A stretch of 64,000 bases of DNA, taken from positions 1 to 64,000 of the forward strand of contig CADBYS010000004.1 of assembly GCA_902798965.1 (NCBI GenBank). Reading direction: 5' to 3'. Under the pieces are notes generated by a model. That model was not told where the DNA came from. It did no database searches and worked only from the letters and a program-made list of their open reading frames with translations. Position numbers and translations under genes: made by a program. This document shows positions 419 through 62,800 of the stretch, piece by piece; the first letter of the stretch is position 1, and each line of letters opens with the position of its first letter. Source of the DNA: an uncultured Bacteroidales bacterium. GTDB taxonomy: Bacteria > Bacteroidota > Bacteroidia > Bacteroidales > Paludibacteraceae.

Positions 419-630
419 TAAACGGATTGTTTAATCTGTACGGATCTAACGGATTAAACGGATTACGATGAACATTAAACGAACACGGAATCACACGGAA
501 AGACACGGATTAAAGCTGTACGAATCTAACGGATTGAACGGATTACGATGGATTCCGTGATAATCCGTGAAACTCCGTGTTCTGAAAAAAAGAATCATTG
601 GAATCCGTAAGATCCGTGGAATCCGTACAG
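419..630. repeat. Fold-back array of CGGATT / AATCCG words
   Basis: This gap is built from one word in both orientations. A 35-bp unit at 436-470 recurs directly at 516-550 with 33 of 35 bases equal, and again inverted at about 600-629. Between them, 481-513 (repeats of CACGGAA) is answered by the inverted 550-582 (repeats of TCCGTG). The whole region could fold into nested stems. The same word (AAATCCGT, GATCCGT) occurs inside mutS2 at 26724-26757. Confidence 0.85.
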
Positions 631-656
631 AAAATTAGAACAAAAAATGAGACTTT

Positions 657-839
657 ATGAAGCGATTATTATTGATTTTTGCAGGGCTGTTGTGCGTTGC
701 TGCCTGTGGTGCGTTAATAAGCTCGTGCAACGTAACACGAACGGTGACGACCTCAAGCCAATATGTGCAGCGAGGGGACACGACGGTAGTGATACAGTCC
801 AAGACGATTGAATCTTACGACGCCTCGAAGCGCCTGTGA
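657..839 (+). CDS. Small lipoprotein (60 residues)
   Basis: The N-terminus is a hydrophobic signal with two possible lipobox cysteines, Cys17 (VAAC) and Cys24 (ISSC). Cys24 is the more likely because the mature part then begins CNVTRTV. The remaining 36 residues are polar and Thr/Ser-rich. I have a general impression that short Bacteroidales lipoproteins of this look are common, but I cannot name a function. The gene ends directly before a strong hairpin terminator shared with the convergent gene. Confidence 0.65.
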   Translation: MKRLLLIFAGLLCVAACGALISSCNVTRTVTTSSQYVQRGDTTVVIQSKTIESYDASKRL

Positions 840-843
840 GCCG

Positions 844-871
844 ACAAAGGCTGCCACTTGGCAGCCTTTGT
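844..871. terminator. Bidirectional intrinsic terminator
   Basis: A perfect 12-bp stem (ACAAAGGCTGCC with its complement) closes on the 4-base loop ACTT and is followed by TTGT. It lies between the convergent ends of the small lipoprotein (839) and the large secreted protein (901), so it can serve both. Confidence 0.85.
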
Positions 872-900
872 TGTATGCTCGAAATATGGAAATCTCGGGA

Positions 901-3924: not shown

Positions 3925-3963
3925 AAATCAATAAATTAAATGTATAGCGCGTTAAAAAGCATA

Positions 3964-3995: not shown

Positions 3996-4071
3996 TTTTT
4001 CAGCTAAAAATTCACAAAAGTAGCAAAAAAAGTGAAAGATTGCGGAAAAATGCGAAAATATTCAAGGAATA

Positions 4072-4115: not shown

Positions 4116-4145
4116 AGTCGAAAGTCAAAAGTCGAAAGTCGAAAG
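4116..4145. repeat. GTCGAAA word array in the operon leader
   Basis: Four adjoining 7-bp words (GTCGAAA or GTCAAAA) lie just downstream of the promoter in the 5' leader. The same word is found at 8582-8624 and inside cinA at 52791-52818. Confidence 0.8.
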
Positions 4146-4679: not shown

Positions 4680-4681
4680 TA

Positions 4682-4710
4682 GACAAAAGACAAAAGACAA
4701 AAGACAAAAG
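4682..4710. repeat. GACAAAA word array
   Basis: Four consecutive 7-bp GACAAAA words fill the 35-bp junction between the first two genes of the operon and end four bases before the ATG at 4715. The word recurs at 6185-6224 and, inverted, at 39030-39068. Confidence 0.85.
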
Positions 4711-4714
4711 CAAA

Positions 4715-5203
4715 ATGAAAAGCAAACATCTGATAGGAATACTTGCTGCGGTGGCAGTGATCATGCTGGCAGCAGGTTGCGGTTCGAGACGCTCAGAGGC
4801 GTACTACGACTACAAGAGTAAGATCATCGCCGCCGAGATGGACGGCGCATATACAATCCGTGCGTTCGGCCGCGCCCGTAACGGCGTGGATGCCTACACC
4901 AAGGCACAGAAACAAGCCGTGCGCGACGTCATTCTCGTGGGCGTTGAATCGTCCGACGCTACAGTCAAACCCCTCAAGCCGCTACTGCTGGAGGTGAACG
5001 CCGAGCAGAAGTACGAGGATTACCTGAACGCCTTCTTCTCCGAGGAAGGTCCGTGGGAGCAGTACTGCAGCCTGAGGCAGAGACGTATCCTGTCGTCGAA
5101 CTTCGCACGCACCGACGCTCAGGTGCTGGCACAAGTGTCCGTGACAGTGTTCCGCAGCGAACTGAAAGCCCGACTGATTGCCGACGGAGTGCTGAAACAA
5201 TAA
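4715..5203 (+). CDS. Lipoprotein, paralogue of the preceding exported protein
   Basis: The 162-residue product has a lipoprotein signal with lipobox LAAGC (Cys22). Its mature part has the same order of segments as the gene before it: a beta-strand region (YTIRAFGRARNG), a helix, EDYLNAFFSEEGPWEQYCSL, and a closing VSVTVFRSELKARL. I read the two as a tandem duplication that produced one periplasmic and one membrane-anchored form. The next gene starts 19 bp downstream. No function is known to me beyond the operon context. Confidence 0.7.
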   Translation: MKSKHLIGILAAVAVIMLAAGCGSRRSEAYYDYKSKIIAAEMDGAYTIRAFGRARNGVDAYTKAQKQAVRDVILVGVESSDATVKPLKPLLLEVNAEQKYEDYLNAFFSEEGPWEQYCSLRQRRILSSNFARTDAQVLAQVSVTVFRSELKARLIADGVLKQ

Positions 5204-6184: not shown

Positions 6185-6224
6185 GAGAGACAAAAGACAA
6201 CAGACAAAAGACAAAAGACAGAAG
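6185..6224. repeat. GACAAAA word array, imperfect
   Basis: Five words of the GACAAAA family (variants GACAACA, GACAGAA) fill the 45-bp junction between the third and fourth genes of the operon, ending just before the ATG at 6228. Confidence 0.8.
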
Positions 6225-6227
6225 AAT

Positions 6228-7196: not shown

Positions 7197-8582
7197 ATGT
7201 TACGATCAAAAACCGCAACACTATGCGTAATGCTCCTACTGCTTTCGGTAGGAGCATTTGCGCAATCGGCCGAACTGTCGTACCGCCGTAACGCACTGGC
7301 AGAGGCGATGATCTATCACTCCGAAGATACGTTCGGCCAGAACATCCAGGAGGCCTTTGAGGCTATACCTATCAGCGACAAGTACGACGACCACTCGGTA
7401 GGCATCCGGATCATCGACAACGATTATATACCGAACGTAAGGAAGAAGTCGCACGGCCTGGTGAAAGCCCAGTTCGGCAAGTCGCTGAACAAGGAGGATG
7501 TGCGGCTGAACGGCCAGATGCTCGAGCGCATACTGAACGAAGGCGACTGCGCCAAGTGGATGGTGGCCAAGTGGTTTGGTTGGGATATAGAGTATATCGA
7601 CTCGCTGCAATCGGATACGCTGATGACCGAAGAGCTGCAGGACTCCCTGCTACTTGATGCCATGACGATGAACATGCGTCTGATCCAGCAGCGCGGACAG
7701 TACAACGCCAGCGACCTGGATGTGCAACTGGCAGGTCACACGGCACGTGGCGTAGCCGCCCTGTCGGATGCCGGCGAGGAGCTGATAGGAAACACGTTCA
7801 TGCTCATCAACGACATCACGTACGTGACAACCGAGGAACGTGCCGCCGTAGCCAAACTGACGATGAACATCATCGGCGGTGTGCTCGATGCCTTAACCGG
7901 CGGCGAGGGCGGCAGAGATATGGCGAAGACCGGCGGGCAGATTGCCGACAGTTTCACGGGCTTCACCGTGCGTACGCACTCCTACCTCTATCAGCTGGAC
8001 TGGAACGACTCGATAGCCGCCATCTTCTACGAGCAGTACTACACCGCTACGCCCAACAGAGAGAAAGTGATGGCGTTCCTGACCGACTCCACATCGTTCC
8101 GCATGAAGTACGTAGCCCATGAGTATGAGTTCGACGGCAAAGCCGAACTGAAAGGTATGTACGACCGCCGTGAGCTGGTGAAGACCATCTGCACACGCTC
8201 CATCGATAAGAACATCGCCGCGCTGCAACTCGCGTACGAGGACTTCAAGGTGAAGACGCCTGTATATGAGATTGTCACCAACGAGAAAGGCAAGGTGCTG
8301 GGTTACTCCGCCAAGATAGGCCTGAAAGAAGGTATAACCGAGCAATCGAAGTTCCAGGTCATTGAGCGCGTGATCGACCCCGAGACACAAAAGTCCACCT
8401 ACAAGCACATAGCCGACCTCAAGCCCGTGAAAGGGCAGATATGGGACAACCGCTACAACGCCGTGATTGAGGATGCCAAGGATGCCAACCTGAACGCTAC
8501 CCTATTCAAGAAGACCGGCGGCGGCGAGATCTTGCCAGGCATGCTGATCATCGAAGGCAAGTACAAGAAGGTGACGGAGTAG
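7197..8582 (+). CDS. Exported protein, last gene of the five-gene operon (461 residues)
   Basis: A signal peptide of about 22 residues (ending GAFAQ) is followed by a mostly helical region. Residues about 185-270 contain a small hydrophobic stretch (LTMNIIGGVLDAL) that may be an amphipathic helix. The last 110 residues (YEIVTNEKGKVLGYSAKIG, then EGITEQSKFQVIE and a closing GMLIIEGKYK) look like a small beta-barrel of the FlgT C-terminal kind. The function is unknown. The operon ends here, followed by a GTCGAAA array and a strong terminator. Confidence 0.65.
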   Translation: MLRSKTATLCVMLLLLSVGAFAQSAELSYRRNALAEAMIYHSEDTFGQNIQEAFEAIPISDKYDDHSVGIRIIDNDYIPNVRKKSHGLVKAQFGKSLNKEDVRLNGQMLERILNEGDCAKWMVAKWFGWDIEYIDSLQSDTLMTEELQDSLLLDAMTMNMRLIQQRGQYNASDLDVQLAGHTARGVAALSDAGEELIGNTFMLINDITYVTTEERAAVAKLTMNIIGGVLDALTGGEGGRDMAKTGGQIADSFTGFTVRTHSYLYQLDWNDSIAAIFYEQYYTATPNREKVMAFLTDSTSFRMKYVAHEYEFDGKAELKGMYDRRELVKTICTRSIDKNIAALQLAYEDFKVKTPVYEIVTNEKGKVLGYSAKIGLKEGITEQSKFQVIERVIDPETQKSTYKHIADLKPVKGQIWDNRYNAVIEDAKDANLNATLFKKTGGGEILPGMLIIEGKYKKVTE

Positions 8583-8624
8583 TCGATAGTCAAAAGTCGA
8601 AAGTCGAAAGTCGAAAGTCGAAAG
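8582..8624. repeat. GTCGAAA word array after the operon
   Basis: Six 7-bp words of the GTCGAAA family begin at the last base of the TAG stop codon (8580-8582) and run towards the terminator. They belong to the same family as 4116-4145 and the cinA insert. Confidence 0.8.
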
Positions 8625-10104: not shown

Positions 10105-10190
10105 TTTTCGATAAATCGAGTTTTCGATATTTCGATATGTCGATATTTCGAGTTTTCGAGTTTTCGATATTTCGAGTTTTCGATATTTAT
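10105..10190. repeat. TCGAAA-type word array between susD and the glycan-binding gene
   Basis: About ten words of 8 to 9 bp, alternating TTTTCGAG and ATTTCGAT forms, fill most of the 141-bp gap. On the coding (minus) strand they read as TCGAAA repeats, related to the GTCGAAA family elsewhere. Confidence 0.85.
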
Positions 10191-24813: not shown

Positions 24814-27182
24814 ACTATCCGGACAACATAGAACAGAAGATCGATTTCACACAAGTGCGTGAGTGGATCAGGAAGGAGTGCGACTCGCCGCTGGGTGAGG
24901 AGCGCTGTGCAGCTATGACGTTCCTTACCGACGCGGCTGCCATCAGCGAGCGCGTGCAGCAAACTGCGCAAATGCAGCAAGCGCTGACCGACGCCACACT
25001 CTCCTTCCCCCGCGGCGACATCTACGACTTGCGCGAACAACTGCAACGCATCCGAATCGAAGGACTGTACCTCGATGAAGCGGAGCTGTTCAGTCTGCAG
25101 AAATGTCTGCAGTTCGCGGAAGAGATGCAGCGCTTCCTCAAGACTCTTGACCTGACGCGCTATAGTCTGCTCATCGCCATGAGCAACATGCTTACTATCT
25201 CCCTCACGCCAATATTGGTGCGATTGGATCAGCTCCTTGACCGCTATGGCGAACTGCGCGACAGTGCCTCGCCCGAACTGGGCAGACTGCGCCAGGAGCT
25301 GCGCAAAGCCGAAGGCACCGTGGCACGCGCCATCGACCGCATACTCCGCCAGGCACAAGCCGACGGACTCATAGATAAAGATGCTGCCCCTACCCTGCGC
25401 GAAGGACGACTCGTGCTGCCCGTGCCCCCTGCCTACAAACGCAAGATAGGCGGCATAGTGCACGACGAAAGTGCCTCGGGTAAGACCGTATATATCGAGC
25501 CGCAGCAGGTGATTGAGGCAAACAACCATATCCGCGAACTGGAAGGTGCCGAGCGCCGCGAGCGCATACGTATCCTCATCGCCTTCTCCGGCGAACTGCG
25601 ACCGCTGCTCACTGACTTGATGCAAGTGCAGCAGTTCGTAGCGGAGATAGATTTTGTGCGCGCCAAAGCCCGCGTAGGAATTGGACTTAAGAGCATAGCA
25701 CCGATCATCAATGACCGCCCGCTGCTCAGTTGGCGCGAGGCACGGCACCCCATATTGTGCAAACGTCTTCCCGAAGCCGGCAAACAGGTCGTACCGCTCG
25801 ACATCAACCTGCACGAGGGAAACAGGATTCTTGTGATCTCCGGTCCGAACGCCGGCGGCAAGTCCGTGTGCCTGAAGACCGCCGCACTGCTGCAATACAT
25901 GCTGCAATGCGGCTTGACCGTGCCGGCAGGCGAAGCCTCCGAGGCTGGTATCTTCCGGCAACTGATGATCGACATAGGCGACGAGCAGTCGATCAACAAC
26001 GATCTGTCCACCTACTCATCGCACCTGAGGAACATGAAGTACTTTGTACGGAACGCCGATGCACAAACCTTGTTTCTCATCGACGAGTTCGGCACAGGCA
26101 CCGAGCCGCTCATCGGCGGCGCGTTGGCAGAGAGCGTGCTGCTGCACCTCAATCAAGCCGAAGCGATGGGTATCATCACCACGCACTACACCAACCTCAA
26201 GCACTTGGCAGAGCAGACCGACGGCATAGTGAACGGCGCGATGCTCTACGACCGAGGCGCACTCAAGCCGCTCTTCCAGCTCTCAATAGGCCAGGCAGGA
26301 AGCTCATTCGCCATAGAGATAGCACGGCAGATAGGTCTGCCGGAAGAGATCATCAAGCAAGCCACCGAACTGATTGGTGCCGAACATATCGACTACGACA
26401 AGCAGTTGCAGGATATAGCCCGCGACAAACGCTACTGGCAGAACAAACGCGAGAATATCCGTTCGCGGGAGAAACATCTCGAGGAACGTATCGCCTACTA
26501 TGAGCAGCAGATCGGTTCTATCAAACAGACGCAACGTGAGATGCTCAGCGAAGCCAAGCAGCAAGCTGCCGACCTGCTGCAGCAGTCCAACGCCACCATC
26601 GAGCGCACCATACGCGAGATTAAGGAGGCGCAAGCTGACAAAGAGGTCACACGCAAAGCCCGCGAGAAGGTCGAGGAGATGAAGCAGAAAGTGAATACAA
26701 AGACTGCAAAAACAAAGGTCAATGGCAAATCCGTCAAATCCGTTCGATCCGTACCGAACAGTAGCACACCCGCACTGGAGCAACGCGGCGGCAAGTCCGT
26801 GCTGCACGATCTGAGCGAACTGCGTATCCTGACCAAACGCCCTGAACTGCCCGCCAAGCCTGTCACGCAACGCGCCACAAGCAGCGTAGCCGATCAGATG
26901 CGCCGACGCAAACTCGCCTTCAATCGCACACTCGACATGCGCGGTATGCGCGCGGACGAGGCGTTGGAGACGATCATCGCCTATATCGACGACGCCATCA
27001 TGGTAGGCGCGGAGGAAGTGACCATCCTGCACGGCACAGGCACAGGCGCAGTCAAGCAAGTGGTGCGCGACTACCTGCAGGAGAAGAGTCACGCCATGCG
27101 CAAACGGGGCACAGGTACAATCACCTTCCACGACGGAGACCCCGACCGTGGCGGCGCAGGAATAACAATCGTAGAATTATAA
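24810..27182 (+). CDS. mutS2: MutS2 family endonuclease / ATPase with Smr domain
   Basis: The 790 residues include the MutS2 core and clamp (about 1-310), the ATPase with Walker A GPNAGGKS near 345-352 and DEFGTGTEP as Walker B region, a coiled-coil segment (about 520-635) and a C-terminal Smr domain (about 705-790, LDMRGMRADEALE and LHGTGTGA). MutS2 acts on branched DNA and stalled ribosomes in other bacteria. Residues about 637-652, between coiled coil and Smr domain, are encoded by repeat words (AAATCCGT, GATCCGT), the same family as the array at 419-630. Length is otherwise normal. Confidence 0.93.
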   Translation: MNYPDNIEQKIDFTQVREWIRKECDSPLGEERCAAMTFLTDAAAISERVQQTAQMQQALTDATLSFPRGDIYDLREQLQRIRIEGLYLDEAELFSLQKCLQFAEEMQRFLKTLDLTRYSLLIAMSNMLTISLTPILVRLDQLLDRYGELRDSASPELGRLRQELRKAEGTVARAIDRILRQAQADGLIDKDAAPTLREGRLVLPVPPAYKRKIGGIVHDESASGKTVYIEPQQVIEANNHIRELEGAERRERIRILIAFSGELRPLLTDLMQVQQFVAEIDFVRAKARVGIGLKSIAPIINDRPLLSWREARHPILCKRLPEAGKQVVPLDINLHEGNRILVISGPNAGGKSVCLKTAALLQYMLQCGLTVPAGEASEAGIFRQLMIDIGDEQSINNDLSTYSSHLRNMKYFVRNADAQTLFLIDEFGTGTEPLIGGALAESVLLHLNQAEAMGIITTHYTNLKHLAEQTDGIVNGAMLYDRGALKPLFQLSIGQAGSSFAIEIARQIGLPEEIIKQATELIGAEHIDYDKQLQDIARDKRYWQNKRENIRSREKHLEERIAYYEQQIGSIKQTQREMLSEAKQQAADLLQQSNATIERTIREIKEAQADKEVTRKAREKVEEMKQKVNTKTAKTKVNGKSVKSVRSVPNSSTPALEQRGGKSVLHDLSELRILTKRPELPAKPVTQRATSSVADQMRRRKLAFNRTLDMRGMRADEALETIIAYIDDAIMVGAEEVTILHGTGTGAVKQVVRDYLQEKSHAMRKRGTGTITFHDGDPDRGGAGITIVEL
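26724..26757. repeat. AATCCGT words inside mutS2
   Basis: Three copies of (A/T)(A/T)CCGT-type words (AAATCCGTC, AAATCCGTT, CGATCCGTA) lie in frame in the linker before the Smr domain, encoding a Ser/Val/Lys-rich stretch (GKSVKSVRSVPN). The family matches 419-630. Confidence 0.75.
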
Positions 27183-27906: not shown

Positions 27907-27958
27907 ACCGCTACGCTGAAAGAAAAAAGACCGTTTCACTCAAAGACAAAAGAAAAAT

Positions 27959-28840: not shown

Positions 28841-28884
28841 AATCGTACATCAATCGTACATCGTACATTATTAAATCGTACATA
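28840..28884. repeat. ATCGTACAT word array before folK-dapF
   Basis: Four words (AATCGTACATC and shorter forms) fill the junction and abut the ATG at 28885. The last word reads ATCGTACATA directly before ATG. The same family lies before the TetR gene, before valS and before pssA. Confidence 0.85.
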
Positions 28885-31334: not shown

Positions 31335-31369
31335 AATCGTACATCGTACATTGTTAAATCGTACATCAC
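31326..31369. repeat. ATCGTACAT word array between dapL and the TetR gene
   Basis: Words of the AATCGTAC(ATC) family begin within the last codons of dapL and run to the ATG at 31370. The stop codon of dapL (31332-31334) is itself inside the word. Confidence 0.8.
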
Positions 31370-33987: not shown

Positions 33988-34010
33988 CAGCCGATTTCAA
34001 TAATCGCAAA

Positions 34011-34068
34011 TCGTAAATAAGTTAAATCGTACATCAATCGTACATCGTACATTAATAAATAGTACATT
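34011..34068. repeat. Word array in the valS leader; left copy of a 58-bp direct repeat
   Basis: This block equals 36755-36812 at 55 of 58 positions by hand comparison; the first 42 bases are identical. It is made of the words AAATCGTACATC, AATCGTACATC and GTACATT, and ends 8 bp before the valS ATG. Confidence 0.9.
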
Positions 34069-34076
34069 AAAACATT

Positions 34077-36764
34077 ATGGAATCAAAATACAATCCTACA
34101 GAGATTGAAGCGCGCCGATATCAGTATTGGCTGGATAATAATCTGTTTCACAGCGAGCCGGATGGTCGTGAACCGTTTACCGTAGTTATTCCTCCCCCCA
34201 ACGTAACCGGTGTGCTGCATATGGGTCATGTGCTCAACGAGACGATCCAAGACATTCTGGTGCGTCGTGCCCGCCTGGAAGGCAAGAACGCCTGCTGGGT
34301 GCCGGGAACCGACCACGCATCCATCGCTACCGAGGCCAAGGTCATCAAGCGATTGAAGGAGCAGGGCATCAACAAGAGCGACCTAACCCGCGAGGAGTTC
34401 TTGAAGCACGCCTGGGCATGGACAGATGAGCACGGAGGAATCATCCTCAAGCAACTACGCAAACTCGGATGCTCGTGCGACTGGAATCGTACCGCCTTCA
34501 CTATGGACGAGACACGTTCGCGTGCCGTGATCAAGGTGTTCTGCGACCTGTACCGCAAGGGACTCATCTACCGCGGATTGCGTATGGTCAACTGGGACCC
34601 TGAGCGTCAGACTGCCTTGAGCGACGAGGAGGTGATCTATCACGACGAGCACTCGAAGTTCTATTACCTCAAGTACGAGGTAGTGGAAGAGCCGGGCAAG
34701 TACGCCATTGTAGCTACCACCCGTCCGGAGACGATCTTCGGCGACGTGGCGGTGTGCATCAACCCCAAAGAGGAGAAGAACCAGTGGCTGCGCGGCAAGC
34801 ACGTGCGCATACCTATCGTAGGACGTGAGATTCCTATCATCGAGGACCGCTACGTGGAGATCGGCTTCGGTACGGGTTGCTTGAAGGTAACGCCGGCACA
34901 CGACGTGAACGACTATATGCTCGGGCAGCAGCATAACCTCATCGCGTACGACATCTTCACGCCCGACGCACATATCAACCTCGATACCATCGAGCCGGAG
35001 ATCCGCAAGAACGTTGAGAAGTTCCACGGCATGGATCGCTTCGATTGCCGCAAGGCGATGGCGGACGACCTCGTGGCTGCAGGCCTGATGGATCATGTCG
35101 AAGATTACGACAACAAAGTCGGCTACTCCGAGCGCACGAACGTGCCTATCGAGCCGCGGCTCTCGCTGCAGTGGTTCATCCGCATGAAGCACTTTGCCGA
35201 TATCGCTCTGCCGCCGGTAATGAACGACGATATTGTGTTCTATCCCACCAAGTACAAGAATACCTACCGCAACTGGCTGGAGAACATCAAGGACTGGTGT
35301 ATCTCGCGCCAACTATGGTGGGGTCACCGCATACCCGCCTATTACGATGCCGATCTGCTTGCTCAGACAGGCATGGAGAACTACCCCGAGGACAAGATCA
35401 TCGTCAGCGAAACGAAGCCCGAAGGCAACTACGTACAGGACGAAGGCGCGCTCGACACATGGTTCTCGTCGTGGCTGTGGCCGATCTCGCTGTTCGATGG
35501 CATTGAGAACCCGGGCAACCCGGAGATCAACTACTACTACCCCACCGCCGATCTCGTAACAGGTCCGGATATCATCTTCTTCTGGGTAGCACGAATGATC
35601 ATGGCGGGCTATGAGTATGTAGGTAAGATGCCTTTCCGTCACGTATATTTCACAGGTATCGTGCGCGACAAGCTCGGCCGTAAGATGAGTAAATCCCTCG
35701 GTAACAGTCCTGATCCGCTTGACTTGATTGCGCGTTACGGTGCCGATGGCGTACGTATGGGTATATTGCTCTCCGCACCTGCAGGCAACGATATTCTGTA
35801 CGATGATTCGCTCTGCGAGCAAGGCCGCAATTTCTGCAACAAGATCTGGAACTGCTTCCGCATGATGAAAGGTCTGGAGGTGGCCGATATCCCGCAGCCC
35901 GAAACAAGCAAATATGCGATTGAGTGGTTCAATGCCAAGCTTGGCGAGGTTTCTGCCAATATCGCCGACCTGTTCAGCAAGTACCGCTTGAGCGAAGCGC
36001 TGATGGAGATCTACAAGCTCTACTGCGACGAGTTCTCGGGCTGGTACTTGGAGATGATCAAGCCGGGCTACCAGCAACCTATCGACCGCGCAACGTACGA
36101 GGCTTCGATGGCGTTCTTCGACCGTCTGCTCGTGCTGCTCCATCCGTTCATGCCGTTCATCACCGAAGAGTTGTGGCAGAACATCTACGAGCGCAAGCCG
36201 GGAGAATCGATCATGACCGCCAGGCTGAATGACGAAAAAGTGTGCAACTCAATCGGGGTCAACACGGGGTTAAATCAGGATCAACACGGGTGCATCCTAG
36301 ACTATACGGCTTATCTCAAGGAGGTCATCGCCGGTGTACGTAATGTCCGCGCCTCGAAGAACATCGCACCGAAGGAGCAACTGACGCTTATCTCGCCGGT
36401 TGAGCTCAATCCTATCGTTGCCAAGCTTGCCAACGTTGAAATCACAAATGACCATACGGCGTCAGCAGATCGGAAGAAATGTCAAATAACAAATAGCGGC
36501 AACGCCGCCAAGTTCATCGTCGGCACTACGGAGTTCGCTATACCGATGGATGCCTTCATCAATGTGGACGAAGAAATCAAGAAACTCGAGGCTGACCTGC
36601 AGCACCAGCAAGGTTTCCTGCGCGGCGTACAAGCCAAGCTCAGCAACGAGCGCTTCGTGCAGAACGCCAAACCCGAGATCGTAGAACTCGAGCGCAAGAA
36701 GGAGCACGACGCTCTGGCACGTATCGCCACCATCGAGGAGAACTTGGCTAAACTTCGTAAATAA
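34077..36764 (+). CDS. valS: Valyl-tRNA synthetase
   Basis: The 895 residues carry the class I motifs [11 protein letters not shown] (HIGH type, 42-51) and [12 protein letters not shown] (KMSKS type, near 535). An editing domain lies between them, followed by an anticodon-binding domain and a C-terminal coiled coil (about 830-895, [16 protein letters not shown]). Two short inserts sit in the anticodon-binding region: residues about 720-742 are encoded by a 69-bp repeat also found at 44629-44697, and residues about 788-808 ([20 protein letters not shown]) by another low-complexity stretch. The gene is flanked by 58-bp direct repeats. Function as the essential Val-tRNA ligase is secure. Confidence 0.95.
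36235..36303. repeat. 69-bp dispersed element inside valS
   Basis: These bases match the reverse complement of 44629-44697 without gaps at 57 of 69 positions (hand count). Shared landmarks are AAAAAGTGTG, CTCAATCGGGGTCAA and CATCCTAGACT. It lies in frame within ValS, adding about 23 residues. Confidence 0.85.
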
Positions 36765-36812
36765 GTTAAATCGTACATCAATCGTACATCGTACATAAAT
36801 AAATCGTACATG
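36755..36812. repeat. Word array between valS and pssA; right copy of the 58-bp direct repeat
   Basis: It starts within the last codons of valS and includes both the valS stop (36762-36764) and the pssA start codon: the last word, AAATCGTACATG, provides the ATG at 36810. Confidence 0.9.
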
Positions 36813-37532
36813 AAACGTCATATTCCGAACATAATAACCTGCTGCAACCTCTTGTGCGGCGCTCAGGCAGTCATGCTGGCAGCGGAAGGTCTGTTCCATT
36901 GCGCCCTGGGAATGATCATCCTCGGTGCGCTGTTCGACTTCTTCGACGGTTTGTCGGCACGCGCGCTGAAAGTTAAGAACCCCATCGGCAAGGAGATCGA
37001 CTCGCTGGCAGATGTCATCACCTTCGGCCTCGCGCCGTCGGTGATGGTGATGCAGGCTATTCGTCTGGCTACGGACAACAGCAACTACGCCTGGGGTTGG
37101 TGGTCAGCCTTGGCACTCGTCATGGCAGCCTTCTCGGCGTTGCGCCTGGCTAAGTTCAATATCGACGAACGTCAGACCAGCTCGTTCATCGGCCTGGCTA
37201 CGCCGGCGAATGCCATCTTCTGGGCATCGCTCGTGGCTACGTTCCCCGATATGGCTTCGTGGGGCACATGGCTGCCATGGGCAATGCTGGCAGTGGTAGT
37301 ACTGAGCTGCTGGCTGCTGGTGTGCGAACTGCCGTTCTTCTCGCTTAAGTTCCACGACCTGTCGTGGAGCGCGAACAAGACGCGTTACGTGTTCCTGATT
37401 GGTTGCGTGCTGATCCTTGCCCTGTGCTGCACGATGGCAGCGCTGCGCCACAACTACCACTATGCCCTGTTCAGCGGAACGGGAATCATCCTGTGGTACG
37501 TTGTTGCGAATATTTGTTCACCTAAGAAATAA
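36810..37532 (+). CDS. pssA: CDP-diacylglycerol-serine O-phosphatidyltransferase
   Basis: The 240-residue membrane protein carries the CDP-alcohol phosphotransferase signature D-G-x2-A-R-x8-G-x3-D-x3-D, seen here as DFFDGLSARA followed by GKEIDSLAD. The N-terminus RHIPNIITCCNLLCGAQA is typical of PssA. It makes phosphatidylserine, the precursor of phosphatidylethanolamine, at the inner membrane. The start codon belongs to the repeat word. It runs into the secreted nuclease gene after 20 bp. Confidence 0.9.
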   Translation: MKRHIPNIITCCNLLCGAQAVMLAAEGLFHCALGMIILGALFDFFDGLSARALKVKNPIGKEIDSLADVITFGLAPSVMVMQAIRLATDNSNYAWGWWSALALVMAAFSALRLAKFNIDERQTSSFIGLATPANAIFWASLVATFPDMASWGTWLPWAMLAVVVLSCWLLVCELPFFSLKFHDLSWSANKTRYVFLIGCVLILALCCTMAALRHNYHYALFSGTGIILWYVVANICSPKK

Positions 37533-39029: not shown

Positions 39030-39068
39030 GTCTTTTGTCTTTTGTCTTTCGTCTTTTGTCTTTTGTCT
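39030..39068. repeat. GTCTTTT word array (inverted GACAAAA family)
   Basis: Five 7-bp words of the form GTCTTTT (one GTCTTTC) fill the gap between the nuclease and PAP2 genes, the complement of the arrays at 4682-4710 and 6185-6224. Confidence 0.85.
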
Positions 39069-46524: not shown

Positions 46525-46548
46525 TATGATTTTTGGGGACTGACTGGA

Positions 46549-46654
46549 ATAAGGAATAAGGAATAAAGACTAAAATGTATTCGACTCGTGTAATCAGTCT
46601 TTACTCCTTTAGCGAAGCGGTCTTTACTCCTTTAGCGAAGCGGGCTTTATTCCA
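46549..46654. repeat. Fold-back leader repeat of gyrA with a 23-bp tandem
   Basis: GGAATAAGGAATAAGG and AATAAAGAC on the left are answered by the right arm. The right arm contains a perfect 23-bp tandem (46598-46620 and 46621-46643, TCTTTACTCC then TTTAGCGAAGCGG) and ends CTTTATTCC. Confidence 0.88.
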
Positions 46655-46702: not shown

Positions 46703-49306
46703 ATGATTACAGAAGACAGAATTATTCCTGTAAAGATTGATGAGGAGATGCGAAGCTCCTACATCGATTACTCGATGAGCGTGATTGTATCCCGTGCGTT
46801 GCCTGACGTGCGTGACGGCTTCAAGCCTGTTCACCGCCGCGTGCTGTACGCCATGTGGGATATGGGTAACACAAGTGACAAGCCGACGAAGAAGAGTGCA
46901 GCTATCGTAGGTGAGGTTATGGGTAAGTACCACCCCCACGGCGACAGCAGTATATACGGCACGCTGGTGCGCATGGCGCAGCCCTGGGCGATGCGCTATC
47001 CGCTGGTATATGGCCAAGGTAACTTCGGTAGTGTGGACGGCGACAGTCCTGCCGCCATGCGTTACACGGAGGCACGATTGGAGAAGCTGGCAGAGGAGAT
47101 GCTGAACGATATCGACAAGGATACCGTGGATATGCAGCTCAACTACGACGACAGCCGTCGTGAGCCGACCGTACTCCCTACCCGCTTCCCTAACCTGCTG
47201 GTGAACGGCGCAAGCGGTATTGCCGTAGGTATGGCCACGAACATGCCCACGCATAACCTGGGCGAAGTGGTGGACGGCTGCCTGGCATATATCCGCAACA
47301 TCGAAGCCCGCATAGCCAACCCCGAGGTGGAAGAGATAACCGTAGAGGGACTGATGGAGTATATCAAGGCTCCGGACTTCCCCACAGGCGGTACGATATA
47401 CGGTTACCAAGGCGTACGCGACGCGTTTGAGACCGGTCGCGGCAGAGTGATCATCCGCTCCAATGCCGATATCGAGACCGACAACAACGGCCGCGAGCAC
47501 ATCATCATCACCGAGCTGCCGTACGGCGTTGTAAAAGCCGACCTGGTGCAGAACATTGCCGCCCTCGTTGACGACAAGCGCATAGAAGGCATCACGGACA
47601 TCAGCGATCAGTCGAAGCGCGACATACGTATCGTGATCGACATCAAGCGCGATGCCAACGCACAGGTGGTGCTGAACAAGCTGTACAAGTACACGGCACT
47701 GCAGAGTTCGTTTGCCGTGAACAACATCGCGCTGGTGAAAGGTCGTCCGATGCTGCTTAACCTCAAGGACTTGGTAGGTAACTTCATCGAGCACCGTATG
47801 GATGTGGTGACACGTCGTACCCGTTTCCTGCTAAAGAAAGCCGAGGAGCGCGCACATATCCTGGAAGGCTTGATCATCGCTGTGGATAACATCGACGAGG
47901 TGGTTAAGATCATCCGCGCCAGCCGTACGCCGGCTGATGCCCAGACGAACCTGGAGCAGCGCTTCAACCTGGACAACCCGCAGAGTAAAGCTATCGTGGA
48001 GATGCGTCTCGCCTCACTCACCGGATTGCGTATCGACGAGTTGCGCGCCGAGTACGAGGAGATAGAGCGTCAGATTGCCCACTACAACGAGTTGCTCGCC
48101 AACGAGAGTCTGCGCTACGAGCTGATCTCGAGCGAGCTGCAGGAGCTGAAGGACAAGTACGCCGACGAACGCCGCACACGCATCGTGAAGATGGCTACGG
48201 AGTTCAACCCCGAAGATATGTATGCCGACGACGATATGGTGATCACCATCTCGCACCTGGGCTACATCAAGCGCACACCGCTGGCAGACTTCCGTCAGCA
48301 AGGCCGCGGCGGTATAGGATCGAAGGCCAGCAACACCCGCGACGAGGACTTCATCGAGTACGTACACACCGCATCGATGCACTCGACGATGATGTTCTTC
48401 ACCAACCTCGGCCGCTTGTACTGGATCAAGGTATATGACCTGCCGGAAGGCAACCGTCAGTCGAAGGGTCGTGCGATGCAGAACGTGATCAGTCTGCAGA
48501 AAGACGAGAAGGTTTGCGCGTTCATCAACGTGAAGGGTCTGAACGATCCCGAGTACGTGAAGAACCACTACCTGATCTTCGCTACCAAGAACGGCTTGAT
48601 GAAGAAGACCACCCTCGAGGACTACAGCCGTCCGCGCGCCAACGGTATCATCGCGCTCGGCTTGCGTGAGGGCGACAGCCTGATCGGCGTAGCGCTGACC
48701 GACGGCGAGAGCCAGATGCTCATCGCCTCCAGCAACGGCAAACTCGTTCGCTTCCCGGAGAACACCGTACGCCCGATGGGACGTACCGCAACCGGCGTTC
48801 GTGCAATAAAATTGGAAGAAGATGGCCAAGATCGCGTGATTGGCATGATTTGTGTAGAGAAGAATAGTGAGGAGACAGTTCTCGTTATTTCCGAGAAGGG
48901 CTTCGGCAAACGTACCGCCCTGGACGATGAGAACGGCGAACCGATCTACCGCATCACCAACCGTGGCGGCAAGGGCGTAATAACCATGGCACTGACCGAC
49001 AAGACAGGTATGTTGGTAGGCCTGCACGCCGTACAGGACGACGAAGATCTGATGCTCATCACCAAGAGCGGAACAGCCATCCGTATGGCGATCGACTCGA
49101 TACGCGTACAAGGCCGCGCTACACAAGGCGTGAAACTCATCGAACTGCAAAAACGCAACGACGTGCTGATGTTCGGGTGCGTAGTGCCGAAAGAGGAGGA
49201 AGAAGAAGAACAAGTACCAAGTGACCAAGTACAAGGTGACCAAGTACAAAGTGACCAAGCACAAGGTGACCAAGTACAAGGTGACAATAATGAAACTAAC
49301 GAATAA
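46703..49306 (+). CDS. gyrA: DNA gyrase subunit A
   Basis: The 867 residues have the winged-helix/tower domain with KYHPHGDSSIYG and the catalytic tyrosine in AAMRYTEARL near 121, the coiled-coil gate, and six C-terminal beta-propeller blades (for example the GRGGIGSKASN gyrase-box region near 535). It introduces negative supercoils together with GyrB. The last 30 residues (VPSDQVQGDQVQSDQ...) are a repeat tail encoded by tandem words, an unusual ending for GyrA. The gene is followed 12 bp later by a TPR gene. Confidence 0.96.
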   Translation: MITEDRIIPVKIDEEMRSSYIDYSMSVIVSRALPDVRDGFKPVHRRVLYAMWDMGNTSDKPTKKSAAIVGEVMGKYHPHGDSSIYGTLVRMAQPWAMRYPLVYGQGNFGSVDGDSPAAMRYTEARLEKLAEEMLNDIDKDTVDMQLNYDDSRREPTVLPTRFPNLLVNGASGIAVGMATNMPTHNLGEVVDGCLAYIRNIEARIANPEVEEITVEGLMEYIKAPDFPTGGTIYGYQGVRDAFETGRGRVIIRSNADIETDNNGREHIIITELPYGVVKADLVQNIAALVDDKRIEGITDISDQSKRDIRIVIDIKRDANAQVVLNKLYKYTALQSSFAVNNIALVKGRPMLLNLKDLVGNFIEHRMDVVTRRTRFLLKKAEERAHILEGLIIAVDNIDEVVKIIRASRTPADAQTNLEQRFNLDNPQSKAIVEMRLASLTGLRIDELRAEYEEIERQIAHYNELLANESLRYELISSELQELKDKYADERRTRIVKMATEFNPEDMYADDDMVITISHLGYIKRTPLADFRQQGRGGIGSKASNTRDEDFIEYVHTASMHSTMMFFTNLGRLYWIKVYDLPEGNRQSKGRAMQNVISLQKDEKVCAFINVKGLNDPEYVKNHYLIFATKNGLMKKTTLEDYSRPRANGIIALGLREGDSLIGVALTDGESQMLIASSNGKLVRFPENTVRPMGRTATGVRAIKLEEDGQDRVIGMICVEKNSEETVLVISEKGFGKRTALDDENGEPIYRITNRGGKGVITMALTDKTGMLVGLHAVQDDEDLMLITKSGTAIRMAIDSIRVQGRATQGVKLIELQKRNDVLMFGCVVPKEEEEEEQVPSDQVQGDQVQSDQAQGDQVQGDNNETNE
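49208..49283. repeat. 15-bp tandem words in the 3' end of gyrA
   Basis: About five units of CAAGTACAAGGTGAC and variants (ACAAAGTGAC, CACAAGGTGAC) encode the acidic/polar tail of GyrA (QVQGD units). Confidence 0.88.
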
Positions 49307-50979: not shown

Positions 50980-51030
50980 TAAACAATAACTCAATAAATC
51001 GTAAATCGTCAATTTGTCAATTGTCAATTT
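50970..51030. repeat. AATCGTAAA / GTCAATT word array between ruvX and def
   Basis: Words AATCGTCAAT, AATCGTAAATCGTC, AATTTGTC, AATTGTC fill the junction, starting within the last ruvX codons and ending just before the ATG at 51034. Confidence 0.8.
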
Positions 51031-51582: not shown

Positions 51583-51722
51583 TTGATTGACGATTGAACG
51601 ATTGACTATTGAGCAATTGATTGACGATTGATTATTATTGACAAATGCCCAGTGCTCAATCGAACAATCCCATGCAATGGAACAATAAATCGTAAATTGT
51701 CAATCTGTCAATCGTCAATTAA
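51583..51722. repeat. Fold-back array of GATTGACGATTGA words
   Basis: The left half (51584-51640) repeats GATTGACGATTG-type words. The right half (about 51656-51722) consists of the inverted words (CTCAATCG, GTCAATCTGTCAATCGTC). The same word occurs in the RND permease gene at 62079-62142. Confidence 0.85.
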
Positions 51723-51729: not shown

Positions 51730-52362
51730 ATGATATTGATTCAGGATACAATAGTTAGCCTTGAGGTGCTCGAGAAGGAGTTTTGTTGCGATATTGATCA
51801 TTGCAAGGGCTGCTGTTGTATCGAGGGCGATGCCGGCGCACCGGTGACTGCGGAAGAGGAAGAGCTGCTCAACGCCATGCTACCTGCACTGTTGCCCCAC
51901 ATGACCAAAGAGGCACGCGAAGTAGTAGAGAAACAAGGCATAGCCTACAATGACCCCTCGGGCGAACGTGTTCTCTCCATCGTCAACGACAAGGATTGTA
52001 TCTTCGCCCGCACAGACCACAACGGGTGGTGCTACTGCCTGATCGAACGCGAAGCAAGCAACACGCAGTCAGCAACACACAGTCACCAACATGAAGTCAC
52101 CAACACGCAGTCACCAACACGCGAGTTTAAGAAGCCTATATCGTGTCACCTATATCCGATACGACTGACGAAAGTAGGTGAACGCGTGGGCGTGGAGTAC
52201 CACCGCTGGGATATATGCCACAGTTCGCGGCAACTGGGACATAAGTTGCACTTGCCGCTTTATAAGTTCCTGAAGGAACCCCTTATTCGCCGCTTCGGAC
52301 AAGCCTGGTACGACGAGCTCTGCCTCACTGCCGAAGAATGGGAAAAAGCCAAAAAGCCATGA
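51730..52362 (+). CDS. DUF3109 (YkgJ-like) cysteine-rich protein
   Basis: I choose the ATG at 51730 (MILIQDTIVSLEVLEKEF), the typical family start; an upstream in-frame start would lie in the repeat array. The 210 residues have a cluster CCDIDHCKGCCC near 18-29 and later cysteines in DKDCIF, WCYCL, ISCHLYPIR and DICH, probably binding a metal. Residues about 108-132 (NTQSATHSHQHEVTNTQSPT) are a repeat-encoded insert. The stop overlaps cinA (ATGA). The molecular function is unknown. Confidence 0.85.
   Translation: MILIQDTIVSLEVLEKEFCCDIDHCKGCCCIEGDAGAPVTAEEEELLNAMLPALLPHMTKEAREVVEKQGIAYNDPSGERVLSIVNDKDCIFARTDHNGWCYCLIEREASNTQSATHSHQHEVTNTQSPTREFKKPISCHLYPIRLTKVGERVGVEYHRWDICHSSRQLGHKLHLPLYKFLKEPLIRRFGQAWYDELCLTAEEWEKAKKP
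52053..52124. repeat. AACACGCAGTCACC words inside the DUF3109 gene
   Basis: Four units (CAACACGCAGTCAG, CAACACACAGTCAC, CAACATGAAGTCAC, CAACACGCAGTCAC) and a partial fifth lie in frame between two conserved cysteine motifs. Confidence 0.85.
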
Positions 52363-53639
52363 AAACGATTTTTGCAGAGATTATTTCTATCGGTGACGAG
52401 TTGCTCATCGGGCAAGTCGTGAACACCAACGCCACATGGATGGCACAAGTACTGAACCAAGCGGGCATCACCGTGGTGGAAGTTACCACTGTGCGCGATG
52501 ACCGGCAATCGATATGGAACGCTGTTTCCACTGCTATGTCGCGCGTGGATATTGTGCTGACAACCGGTGGTTTAGGTCCTACCAAGGACGATATAACAAA
52601 AGGTGTGTTGTGCGACTATTTCCATACACGTCTGGTGGAAGACCTGCGCGTACGTGCACACGTGCATGCTTTATATAAGAATCGTCCGGAGGTGCTGAAC
52701 ACGCTCACCGCCACACAGTGGATGGTTCCCAGCCATGCAACCATACTCCCTAACCGCGTTGGCAGCGCACCGATCATGGTGTTTGATCAAGTCGAAAGTC
52801 GAAAGTCGAAAGTCGAAGGTCACGGACATATACTCATCAGTATGCCCGGCGTGCCGCATGAGATGAAGATCGCTATGAACGAGCAGGTACTACCCTACCT
52901 CACTGAGCGGCTGGAGTTGTCAGCAGATATCATCCACCGCAACGTGGTTGTGTACGGAATCCCCGAATCGACCCTGGCACTGAAGATTGAGAAGTGGGAA
53001 AAGAACCTGCCGAAATCCATGCACCTGGCGTATCTGCCCAAGCAAGGTGTGGTACGGCTGCGTCTGTCATCCTACGGAGAAGCCACGGCTGAACAGATTG
53101 ACAAACAGATAGCTGACTTGCTGCCGCTGATTCAGGAGAACGTGATTGCCACCGAGGATGTGACACCGAACATGGTGCTAGGTAAGTGGCTGACGGAGAG
53201 TAAGCAAACCATCGCCACAGCCGAGTCATGCACCGGCGGACGCTTGGCAGCCCTGCTCAACGAGCAGTCGGGCAGTTCGGCGTATTACATGGGCAGCGTG
53301 ATAGCCTACGACAACAGCGTGAAGCAACATGTGCTCGGCGTGAAAGCCGACACACTGGCTACCGACGGTGCAGTCAGTGAAGCCTGCGTACGACAGATGG
53401 CGGAAGGCGTACGCAAACTGCTACATACCGACTTTGCCATTGCCACCTCGGGCATAGCAGGCCCTACAGGCGGCTCGGAAGAGAAACCCGTAGGCACAGT
53501 TTGGATCGCCTGGGCATCCGCCGAAGGCACAACAGCCGAGTGTTGCCACTTCAGCGGCGACCGCGCACAAATAACGCAAAACGCCGCCATGGCTGCCATA
53601 GGCAAATTCCTGTTGCAACAGATTGCGAAAAAGCAGTAA
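52359..53639 (+). CDS. cinA: CinA family protein
   Basis: The start at 52359 overlaps the preceding stop. The 426 residues have an N-terminal MoCF-like domain (about 5-170, with SIGDELLIGQVVNTNATW and TTGGLGPTKDD) and a C-terminal amidase domain (about 275-420, with TAESCTGGRLAALL and SGIAGPTGGSEEKPVG) as in nicotinamide-nucleotide amidohydrolase PncC. Residues about 145-158 (QVESRKSKVEGHGH) are a repeat-encoded insert in the MoCF domain. Likely role: pyridine-nucleotide salvage. Confidence 0.92.
   Translation: MKTIFAEIISIGDELLIGQVVNTNATWMAQVLNQAGITVVEVTTVRDDRQSIWNAVSTAMSRVDIVLTTGGLGPTKDDITKGVLCDYFHTRLVEDLRVRAHVHALYKNRPEVLNTLTATQWMVPSHATILPNRVGSAPIMVFDQVESRKSKVEGHGHILISMPGVPHEMKIAMNEQVLPYLTERLELSADIIHRNVVVYGIPESTLALKIEKWEKNLPKSMHLAYLPKQGVVRLRLSSYGEATAEQIDKQIADLLPLIQENVIATEDVTPNMVLGKWLTESKQTIATAESCTGGRLAALLNEQSGSSAYYMGSVIAYDNSVKQHVLGVKADTLATDGAVSEACVRQMAEGVRKLLHTDFAIATSGIAGPTGGSEEKPVGTVWIAWASAEGTTAECCHFSGDRAQITQNAAMAAIGKFLLQQIAKKQ
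52791..52818. repeat. GTCGAAA words inside cinA
   Basis: Four 7-bp words (GTCGAAA three times, then GTCGAAG) lie in frame, the same word as the arrays at 4116-4145 and 8582-8624. They read as VESRKSKVE. Confidence 0.9.
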
Positions 53640-59685: not shown

Positions 59686-59697
59686 GCACCACTAAAC

Positions 59698-59731
59698 AAC
59701 ATTGGCCATCCGCAACAGGATGGTCAATGTT
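59698..59731. terminator. Hairpin terminator between convergent units
   Basis: A 14-bp stem with one G-T pair (AACATTGGCCATCC / GGATGGTCAATGTT) and loop GCAACA, just after the stop of the InlB-repeat gene. It lacks a long T run. Confidence 0.7.
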
Positions 59732-59739
59732 CATCACAT

Positions 59740-59779
59740 CAAGCAAGGCAGTACGTCACACGACATACTGCCTTGCTTG
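59740..59779. terminator. Second hairpin, perfect 14-bp stem
   Basis: CAAGCAAGGCAGTA (59740-59753) pairs perfectly with TACTGCCTTGCTTG (59766-59779). It lies between the convergent InlB-repeat gene and RND permease and may serve both. Confidence 0.75.
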
Positions 59780-59849
59780 TATTCTATCCTATGATGAGGG
59801 GCTGTCACCGGAATAGCAACCTGATAAGACTTAATGAATCAACGATTGC

Positions 59850-62800
59850 TTACCGGATGATCCTGGCGTAAAGAACAGGAAGGATAGTAAGTGTGAGCGG
59901 GAGGGTGAAGATTGTACCGAAGCAGATGACGACTCCCATAGGCATCCATAGGCTTGTGTGCGCAATAATCATAGGCAGCACACCCAGTGCCGTTGTGGCG
60001 GAGGTGAGGAAGACAGGGCGCATACGTCTTAGTCCTGCCTCGAAGGCTGCATCGTTGGCATTAAGCGCTTTGGTGTGGCGCAACTGCTCGGCATACTCGT
60101 ACATCATGATGGCATTGCGCACGATGATACCGATGAGCGATACTATTCCAAGTACTGCCGTGATAGAGATATCCAAGCCAAAGAGCCACAAACCAAGCAT
60201 CGCGCCGAACAGACACAGAACAGCTGACGACAACGCAAGCACTGCCAAACGGATCTTGCCGAAATGATACAGCAGCAACACGAACATCACGAGCAGTGCA
60301 GCGACAATGCTCCACAAGATCTTCGGGATAATCAGTCCGTTGAGTTCGCTCAGTCCGCCATAACGCACCTGGATAGCCTCTGAGGGGTGCCGCGCGGCAA
60401 ATCCCTCCATCCATTGGCGAACTGTTCGTTCGGCAACCACCTGCGAGGTAGTACCGACCAGGTCTGCACCTATGGTGATGGTGGCTACACCGTTGCGGTG
60501 CTCAATGAGCGTGTGATGCCATTCAGGTATAATATCCGCAATCTGCCTAAGCGGTACCCATTCGCCGGTAGCTGTTGGCACAGGGAGGTTCATTGCTGAC
60601 TGCTTGTTATCGGCATAAAGGATAACGGGTGTAGGATGGCTGTCGCCTTGCTCGTATATGTGCGTGAGTGTCACACCCTGCGTAACGGAAGCCAGATAGA
60701 GCGAGAGCGCAGCCTCGGAAACCCCCAACCGCGATGCCTCATCGCCCTTGAGCACTATACGACTGCCGCAAACCATATTGTCGTAATCGGAATGCACCCA
60801 CGTCAGGCAAGGCATAGAAGCCATGAATGCTTTGATGGAATCGATATAGAGTTGCATATCGGTTTCATAATCCTCTGTATGCACAAACGGCGCATAACAT
60901 AGCCGCACCTCAAGCGGATTCTTAACCACCTGGTAGTCCAATTGCTTGAAGCGGACGTAGGCATTGGGGAAATAATTCTCATAACGCGGTGACAGTTCGC
61001 GCAGTAACTCGGATGTAGCCTGATAATCGCGTGTACCAACCACGAACTGCGCATAGTTCGGTGCAGGCATAGCCGGCGTATAGGTAGCATGGAAGCGCGG
61101 CGACGAATGTCCGACGAACGATGTAATGGTACGGATGCGCGGGTCAGCGATGATCAGCCGCGCAAGCGAATCAGCCAGTTGGGCAGTCTCGCTAACGGTT
61201 GCACCTTGTGCCAGATGAATCTCGACGGCGAACAGTTCCCGCTCGGCCTTGGGCAGCAGTTGCAGATTGCAGCGTGTCAGGAAATATACTCCGGATCCTA
61301 AAGCCAGAACAAGCATCGCATACGTGAACCAGCGATAGCGGAAGCAGAAGGTCAGCAAACGTTTGTAGGCCTGTTGCAGCCGGGCAAAGAACCGTTCCTG
61401 CACACGCTCGAACGCATTCGTCTTTTCCCCGCGCCTAAGGATAAACTGCGTAGAGAGATACGGAGTGACCCACGCGGCATAGAAGATACTGGCACCCAAG
61501 GCGTAGAGTACAGCAAACGGAAAGAGGTGCAGGAACTCTCCAAGAGGACCATCGATGATCTTGGTCATAGGGAAGAACATACCCGATATGGCACACGTAG
61601 CCAGTGACATAGGCACAAACAGTTGCTTGGTGCTGACCGTTGCCGCATACCACCGCGACCAACCTTGGTCAAGCAGGTTGGTGTAACCGTCGATAATGAT
61701 CACGGAATCGTCAACAATCATACCAAGCACGAAGATCAGTGCCGCAAGCGTAACCGTATTGAGTTCAATACCGGTCAGATACATCAAGCCCAGACATATA
61801 GCGATGCACACCGGCACGCCTGTGGAAGCCACGAGTGCCGTTCGCAAGGGGAAAAGCAGCAGCATGACGGCAATAACCACCAGAATAGAGATGAGTATGT
61901 CGTGCAAGAACGATCGCACAGAGTCATCAACCACCTTTGGTTGGTCGGTTACGCGCGTGAGACGTATATCAGGCGGGAATTGCAGCGCTGCCTCATCCAA
62001 CACCTTTTGTACCGTCTCGCCAAAGGCTACGATGTTATTGCCGGGCTCCATCTCCATACTGATAAGCAAGGCGTTGGGGATTGACGATTGAGCGATTGAC
62101 GATTGACGATTGCTTGACGATTGATTGCTGATTGACGAATTGTAGCAACGGATGAACTGCGAGGGATCAGGCAGTTGGCGCTCGATGCGGGCAATATCCT
62201 TCAGGCGCAGCACGCTGCCCGTGAGCGGATCGGTGCGGATGATCTGTTGTCCTATCTCAAACTCGCCGCTATACGGTATATCAATGAGCATACTGCTTCC
62301 ATCGGCATTGCCGCCAACGGTACGCAAACCCTGCAAGAGCAGTTGCGCCTGCAGTGCAGCGGGTGTGATGCCATAAGCAGCAAGGCGTTGCAAATCGAGC
62401 GTAACGGATATCTGTTCATGCTGCGCGCCAAGGATCTTGAGTTTTCCTATCTCGGGAATATCGCGCAACCGGCGGGTGAGTTGTTCGGCATAGCGCTGCA
62501 GTTGCGGCACGCTGCGCTCACTGCTCGTGACCGACAAGAGGATGGATGCCGTATTGCCGAAATCATCAATCAGCACTACCTCCGCTACACCTGTAGGCAG
62601 TTGGGTCTTCTTCAGCAGGTTTAGCCCCGCACGTATCTTCGCCCACACCTCGTCCTTGCGCATTACAGAGTTGCGGAGCATGACGTAGCAGTACACTACC
62701 CCATCTTCGGTCGTGGAATAGGTGAGTTGCTTATCCACCTCCTCGTAGGAGTTAATGAACTCCTCAAGCGGAAAAGTAACCTGCTGCTCCACATCCTCAG

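Follow-up and report, generated by a model that had tools for sequence, protein, structure and literature searches.

Why should the same short tandem words stand at unrelated places in one bacterial genome, in gaps between genes as well as inside genes? The question is raised by a 64,000-nt stretch of DNA from an uncultured Bacteroidales bacterium of the family Paludibacteraceae (bases 1-64000 of contig C4, hereafter the window), part of a draft genome of 2,847,697 bp in 51 contigs that is 90% complete (G000). A first-pass annotation had described families of tandem words that recur at distant loci of the window, and had taken them for a dispersed, still spreading class of sequence. Here we analyse these arrays, chiefly those of the heptamer GTCGAAA, and propose, as a reading that we hold to be somewhat on the probable side, that they are tandem-heptamer modules copied within the genome and kept where they are harmless, in gaps between genes and in in-frame protein loops. 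Unless another sample is named, array counts in G000 come from 1,243,460 bp (44% of the genome); gene calls are home-made, array thresholds were set by us, and most of the genomes compared are drafts.

Word arrays recur throughout the genome

The tandem-repeat finder (TRF) run on the window recovered arrays at the listed positions or no more than a few bases away, and eight of the nine word families tested recur as clusters at unrelated loci. GTCGAAA forms 77 clusters, GACAAAA 25, GTGAAAG 16, ATCGTACAT 13 (14 at the 30-nt spacing limit), ACGGATT 11, TATTTCGA (a family of period 8) 8, GATTGACG 6 and ACGCAGTC 4, compared with 0 or 1 each in the reversed-sequence and order-4 Markov controls; the families are thus enriched beyond composition. 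The 14-mer GTCGAAAGTCGAAA occurs 182 times in the whole genome and not once in the reversed control. Exact tandem pairs, counted in 464 kb against an order-3 Markov expectation, stand out between genes at period 7 (61 vs 7.0 expected), period 8 (27 vs 1.8) and period 11 (9 vs 0), and at period 7 number 49 vs 31 expected in coding DNA. Tandem units of 5-11 nt are in excess of chance, as in the class of long simple sequence repeats. As a description only, since the words were chosen from the window itself, 16 window-picked words make up 8.3% of its intergenic and 1.2% of its coding DNA, the reversed control giving 0.9% and 0.6%. The shared word arrays are real.

Period 7 is also the commonest in a looser search for arrays of periods 6-12, with 103 of 167 arrays in G000, 92 of 155 in the related genome G156 and 17 of 33 in G118; the exception is G205, in which period 6 leads with 21 arrays, vs 17 of period 7, of 49. 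Among 80 loci encoding valyl-tRNA synthetase (ValS), the density of period-7 arrays is 10.2 per 100 kb at the 19 with more than 70% identity to that of the window and 3.2 per 100 kb at the remaining 61.

Some of the first descriptions need amendment. The GATTGACG array reported near 51583 exists there only as a looser GATTGAC/GATTGAA array, and the one in the RND permease gene stands. Words of the CGGATT family are present both at 419 and in the gene that had been called mutS2, with only two copies in the latter. Three of the 11 ACGGATT clusters (window 422, C1 75653 and C3 343) come after a shared gene end and therefore look like duplicated genes, so that part of this family is ordinary. The word CAAGTACAAGGTGAC in the gyrA tail (49211-49285) forms no cluster by its core AGTACAAG in the 1.24 Mb, and looks like an ordinary in-frame 15-bp repeat outside the word system.

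A preferred length of four units with fixed ends

GTCGAAA arrays have a preferred size. Exactly four units are present in 54 of the 82 arrays of at least two units; by two, three, four, five and six units, the counts are 4, 2, 36, 1 and 2 in coding DNA (n=45) and 10, 0, 18, 6 and 3 between genes (n=37). An earlier, smaller sample (860,653 bp) gave four units in 44 of 53 arrays of at least three. The periodic stretch is exactly 30 nt long in 44 of the 68 arrays of at least three units (29/41 coding and 15/27 intergenic). It usually reads A(GTCRAAA)x4G and then C, with A ahead of the first unit in 67/68 arrays and GC after the last in 52/68, and TA ahead of the unit is common. The arrays are clustered along the genome, with 17 neighbour pairs within 1.5 kb as against 6.0 expected and a maximum of 12 in 1000 simulations. 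Direct reading finds no GG in the units GTCGAAA, GACAAAA and ATCGTACAT, which do not have the G-tracts of quadruplex-forming heptamers.

These regularities bear on ordinary slippage, in which each array would grow locally from a seed by DNA polymerase slippage favouring a 7-nt step, a proposal that MacGregor (PMC4679880) attributes to Mrazek 2007. Slippage agrees with the prominence of period 7 between genes, with Mrazek's finding, as given by MacGregor, that heptamers are the most abundant class in most genomes, and with GTCGAAA arrays of three to ten units in G156 and three to twelve on viral contigs. It should also let the unit number vary freely and leave many three-unit arrays, whereas G000 has two with three units vs 54 with four, and fixed ends; the size is looser in G156. 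Nor does local origin predict that a word found in a protein loop should be frequent elsewhere in the same species, as is described below. We regard slippage as an improbable source of the arrays.

The viral contigs in question (L161-L187) hold 27 stretches with three or more GTCGAAA units, often with ATA ahead as in G000, and two groups of them look like near-copies of one virus each. Viral spread of the arrays was considered and not adopted; the viral matches showed no link to this genus.

Arrays within genes for basic enzymes

Of the 68 GTCGAAA arrays with at least three units, 41 lie in predicted open reading frames (ORFs), 38 of them on the gene's strand. Direct reading shows the unit to be stop-free in all six frames, and the sense-strand arrays are distributed over the three frames as 22, 8 and 8, the first of which encodes VESRKSKVES. 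The orientation bias in genes can come from selection, the peptide read in reverse having many F and L residues. Between genes, 14 arrays have the orientation of the downstream gene and 13 the opposite one.

The proteins concerned include basic enzymes. The Pfam scan of array-bearing proteins (27/33) identified AroQ, Era, DXS, PrmA, DapB, signal peptidase, SecDF, LeuRS, GcpE (IspG), a Mur/FolC-type ligase, SpoIIE, GH36, CinA, a tetrapyrrole-methylase-family protein and a GluQ-RS-like synthetase, and 17 of the 33 arrays in scanned proteins fall within the Pfam match when compared by hand. Several members of this list are essential in other bacteria. In alignments with Protein Data Bank (PDB) entries, the AroQ and Era arrays stand opposite gaps in the solved relatives. 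A structural model of AroQ (pLDDT 81.4, ten sequences) places array residues 65-74 at a helix end and in the coil before a strand, which is in line with, and no more than in line with, a tolerated connection at this site.

Placement in genes also bears on a regulatory reading, in which selection maintains the arrays as binding sites, perhaps of a translation regulator, the role that MacGregor suggested for the TAACTGA repeats. The compound arrays of ATCGTACAT would suit such a role, since all 14 clusters lie between predicted genes and on the genes' strand, and in four gaps of the window the words fill at least 80% of the stop-to-start distance. For the arrays as a whole we judge it quite improbable, given the majority of GTCGAAA arrays within ORFs, the even orientation of those between genes and the change of vocabulary between related species.

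As a separate observation, a FolC gene (L116:7402-8772) carries an antisense GTCGAAA array and seems to contain two more stretches that resemble words, ISGQVSAISNQ and PSAKRSSLTANR.

Different words in the same loops of related species

Three of the array-bearing loops were compared across species, with the words of other species called by eye. For CinA (the best 30 loci of 75 matching genomes, 29 parsed), G000 has GTCGAAA, L132 has AAGAGCC, L143 and L146 have ACGCTAA, and L135, L136 and L140 have other words; 15 loops are bare with eight residues and seven of 10-22 residues have no clear words. For Era (the best 30 loci of 161 matching genomes), G000 again has GTCGAAA, L269 (genome G309) has five units of CAACAGC/CAACGGC, and L282 and L290 have AATGACM-like words; 23 loops are bare and three are longer without clear words. 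For AroQ (the best 30 loci of 162 matching genomes, 25 parsed), G000 has GTCRAAA x4 and seven others have clear or likely words, including CTTCAGC, AATGTCA and GGCGATGA. The AroQ loop has 17 residues in G000 vs an ordinary 16 in most of the closest sequences, so that in G000 the loop is better read as replaced than as simply enlarged by insertion.

Related species have sharply different word vocabularies. There are 360 GTCRAAA dimers in G000, 266 in G021, 179 in G297, 140 in G134, 135 in G156, 61 in G150, 55 in G228 and 28 in G306, and none is present in G309, G278, G205 or G118. G309 is the closest relative by Era (90% identity, among the best 30 loci), not by AroQ (73%, with ten others listed above it). 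The four loop words tested are frequent in their source species and rare in most others, with the reservation that the words were chosen from loops already seen and the dimer counts include the loop's own one to three dimers: GCCAACR has 21 in G309, 14 in G306 and no more than 3 in any of 15 other genomes; AAGAGCC has 8 in G150 and no more than 1 in any of 15 others; ACGCTAA has 9 in G142, 6 in G050 and no more than 2 in any of 14 others; and AATGACM has 11 in G278, 10 in G222, 16 in G309 and no more than 3 in any of 13 others. The frequency of a loop word elsewhere in the same genome, together with different words in the same loops, points to copying within genomes plus selection for tolerated sites. 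The 360 dimers vs 0 and the species-specific words in shared loops thus bear out the first description of a dispersed and spreading class. With its own word set in each species, word families would expand and die out quickly.

Direct comparison of sites between species adds detail. At junction C2 165408 the G205 orthologue has about 36 bp less. At another aligned site, one species has GTCGAAA-like units where the other has AAGAGCC-like words, and the remaining aligned sites have unrelated or other-word sequence, often of similar length. Two coding sites are common to G000 and G156, with the unit 28/28 and 27/28 identical and the aligned flanks 81-84% identical, which hints that the unit may have been homogenised. 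G156 also shows, at loci L210, L223 and L239, a recurring TTCTTATCTCGGCAAGCCT directly after AGAGTT-type or AGTGTT-type words.

An assembly artefact of metagenome-assembled genomes (MAGs) is hardly credible as the source of the arrays. G000 is in draft form and the records of many relatives carry the label MAG, but the reading frames stay open in conserved enzymes, the same site is occupied in two species, and arrays are present in several genomes of the genus.

How new copies may arise

If tandem-heptamer modules are copied within the genome, the main module in G000 would be A(GTCRAAA)x4G, about 30 nt long and in most cases with a C after it, and new copies would be made by copying instead of arising locally. 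Templated insertion is a plausible route, for example during gap or break repair or by template switching at a fork, and local sequence may have been lost at some sites, as at AroQ. It would explain the sharing of words, the replacement of local sequence and the clustering, though not by itself the 30-nt length, which a dedicated enzyme would explain.

Several observations weigh against copying of a fixed module. G156 keeps less strictly to four units (11 of 25 arrays, seven having three), GACAAAA arrays in G000 have five units in 6 of 11 cases, and selection on the reading frame may add to the 30-nt preference within genes, though not between them. The arrays of AroQ and PrmA look like replacements with little change in length. 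Neither DapB, where the solved relatives have more sequence at the position of the array, nor FolC, where the alignment with solved relatives does not reach the array, gives a sign of insertion. AATGACM is commonest in G309, whose Era loop holds another word. The alignment of orthologous junctions suggested in the first-pass annotation was made between species, and both flanks could be aligned to a relative for only 9 of 53 arrays, with one clean empty site among them; no insertion event between strains was seen. Finally, no target-site duplication was found at GTCGAAA arrays, flank matches being within the range of shuffles, and seven folded stretches gave -3.8 kcal/mol or weaker (z -1.9 to 0.1) with no palindrome, so no familiar insertion enzyme is implied. 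Transposition driven by hairpins and accompanied by target duplication is accordingly unsupported by folding and by flank comparison.

A dedicated mobile element would be a 30-nt element with direct-repeat ends, moved by an enzyme acting in trans. The fixed length and ends, the spread of 68 arrays of at least three units over genes and gaps in 44% of the genome, and the absence of dimers from G309 would all suit such an element. The missing target duplication, inverted ends and hairpin do not, and the reverse transcriptase domain RVT_1 (PF00078) has no match in G000 or in 10 of 13 other genomes, transposases not having been searched. We think such an element unlikely, and reverse transcriptase as the copying enzyme was rejected as far as RVT_1 is concerned, with the 90% completeness of G000 in mind. 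A broader proposal, which we offer tentatively and consider possible though doubtful, is that non-palindromic modules of about 30 nt, made of tandem heptamers, are copied by some dedicated mechanism, that their vocabularies turn over between related species, and that they are repeatedly re-used to build or replace loops of basic enzymes.

Features of the window

The arrays of the window are collected in Table 1. NCBIfam named four of nine window proteins (SusC, FolK-DapF, ValS and GyrA), and Rfam and tRNA scans of the window gave zero matches. The ValS of the window shares 71-85% identity with those of 19 Bacteroidales records, several of them titled Paludibacteraceae and many from rumen or gut. 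The neighbours of valS (window 24000-46000) have no orthologue-level identity beside valS in any of these 19 relatives, several of whose contigs are short, and only two weak matches of 26-29% were seen. Alignment junction by junction around valS gave no usable synteny in the 19 relatives, and gene-level orthologues were used in its place; the surroundings of valS hint that gene order in the group is much shuffled, some contigs being short. At locus L088, whose title reads Staphylococcus sp. and is probably wrong, the encoded ValS has 59% identity to that of the window.

Two further kinds of repeat were noted. Longer, possibly hairpin-like words of type AGACCGCTTCGCTGAAAG adjoin heptamer words at 46597-46653 and 27905-27953, and within the low-GC stretch at 40-44 kb a 45-bp unit is repeated three times in tandem at 40259-40393 with 95% match.

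Table 1. Word arrays of the window, with positions in the 64,000-nt stretch.
Feature	Position	Strand	Context
CGGATT words	419..626	.	downstream of ORF 26-418; partly paralogue duplication
GTCGAAA-type array, four units	4116..4145	+	leader of gene called from 4182
GACAAAA array	4681..4715	+	fills gap between stop and next start
GACAAAA array	6188..6225	+	between two genes
GTCGAAA-type array, six units	8581..8624	+	begins at upstream gene's stop codon
TATTTCGA octamer array	10107..10188	.	between two minus-strand genes
ACGGATT words, two	26726..26743	-	in ORF 24810-27182; mutS2 is the first-pass name only
ATCGTACAT compound array	28841..28884	+	fills gap between two genes
ATCGTACAT compound array	31335..31369	+	fills gap between two genes
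ATCGTACAT compound array	34002..34067	+	valS leader
ATCGTACAT compound array	36755..36818	+	at and past valS end
GACAAAA array, inverted	39030..39068	-	between two genes
GGAATAA array	46546..46566	+	upstream of gyrA (TRF)
23-bp repeat GTCTTTACTCCTTTAGCGAAGCG	46597..46653	+	upstream of gyrA; candidate member of word system
TAAATCG / GTCAATT words	50995..51030	+	gap between genes
GATTGAC / GTCAATC words	51585..51719	+	gap between genes
CAACACGCAGTCAC array	52059..52122	+	in DUF3109 gene; 16-residue gap opposite in G205 and G118 orthologues (17 gap residues in all)
GTCGAAA array, four units	52791..52818	+	in-frame in CinA loop, VESRKSKVE
GATTGACG array	62079..62135	+	in RND permease gene (59850-62906, minus strand), within ACR_tran match

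Comparison with known repeats and significance

Short DNA set in frame within conserved genes has a precedent in the Rickettsia palindromic elements, selfish-looking sequences that are palindromic and longer than about 30 nt. Conserved genes carry the present arrays in frame as well, with insertion rather than replacement evident at few sites; unlike the Rickettsia elements, the arrays are non-palindromic and about 30 nt long. The small dispersed repeats of Nostoc that Elhai reportedly described in 2008 are said to be 21-27 nt long, some of them set in heptamer tandems without being tandem heptamers themselves, and several to share secondary structure. REP and REPIN sequences, linked to RAYT transposases (PMC3116915), are tiny dispersed repeats regarded as multiplying by copying inside genomes, and REPINs are hairpins of inverted pairs. 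The arrays resemble REPINs, as there described, in being very short, dispersed and putatively copied, and differ in having no hairpin or inverted pair.

Closer relatives are known, and the initial statement that the class matches no known element is only partly right, tandem heptamers having been found across bacterial genomes (PMC4679880, PMC4692102). MacGregor 2015 (PMC4679880) describes TAACTGA heptamers in Beggiatoaceae, Cyanobacteria and five Bacteroidetes, with 169 sets in one genome and two in Paludibacter; they lie mostly just upstream of starts, some overlap ORFs, and they are patchy between species. The likeness lies in tandem heptamers at many sites with a patchy distribution between species. 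Set against that description, the present system has many word families, a preferred 30-nt length and over half of its GTCGAAA arrays in ORFs, conserved enzymes included, while all 14 ATCGTACAT clusters are intergenic. TAACTGA dimers number 0 in the 1.24 Mb of G000. Rehm 2015 (PMC4692102) reports quadruplex-forming GGGAATC / GGGGAYT heptamers of Xanthomonas and Nostoc, with 186 and 183 arrays in two Xanthomonas genomes, often near ORF ends and 89-93% intergenic, and a clear four-unit preference tied to G-quadruplex formation. The GTCGAAA arrays share the dispersal and the four-unit preference with the Xanthomonas heptamers so described, unlike them without a G-tract, and GGGAATC dimers also number 0 in the 1.24 Mb. 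New with respect to the known heptamer repeats are the fixed length without G-tracts, the many vocabularies and the frequent in-frame placement; no report of such arrays in this bacterial family was found in the open-licence literature.

The origin and role of dispersed heptamer repeats have been left open, 'no mechanism is evident' being said of the one system (PMC4679880) and a role that 'remains to be elucidated' of the other (PMC4692102). Because the preference for four units is found here without G-tracts, the explanation of the Xanthomonas preference by G-quadruplexes is weakened. The group studied here consists of rumen bacteria, each species seemingly with its own vocabulary of mostly seven-letter words, and a genus of 178 genomes with differing vocabularies and hotspot loops offers a natural experiment for the gain, loss and replacement of words. 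If the copying proposed here is true, the modules would supply basic enzymes with new loop sequence and would perhaps rank with the smallest mobile DNA.

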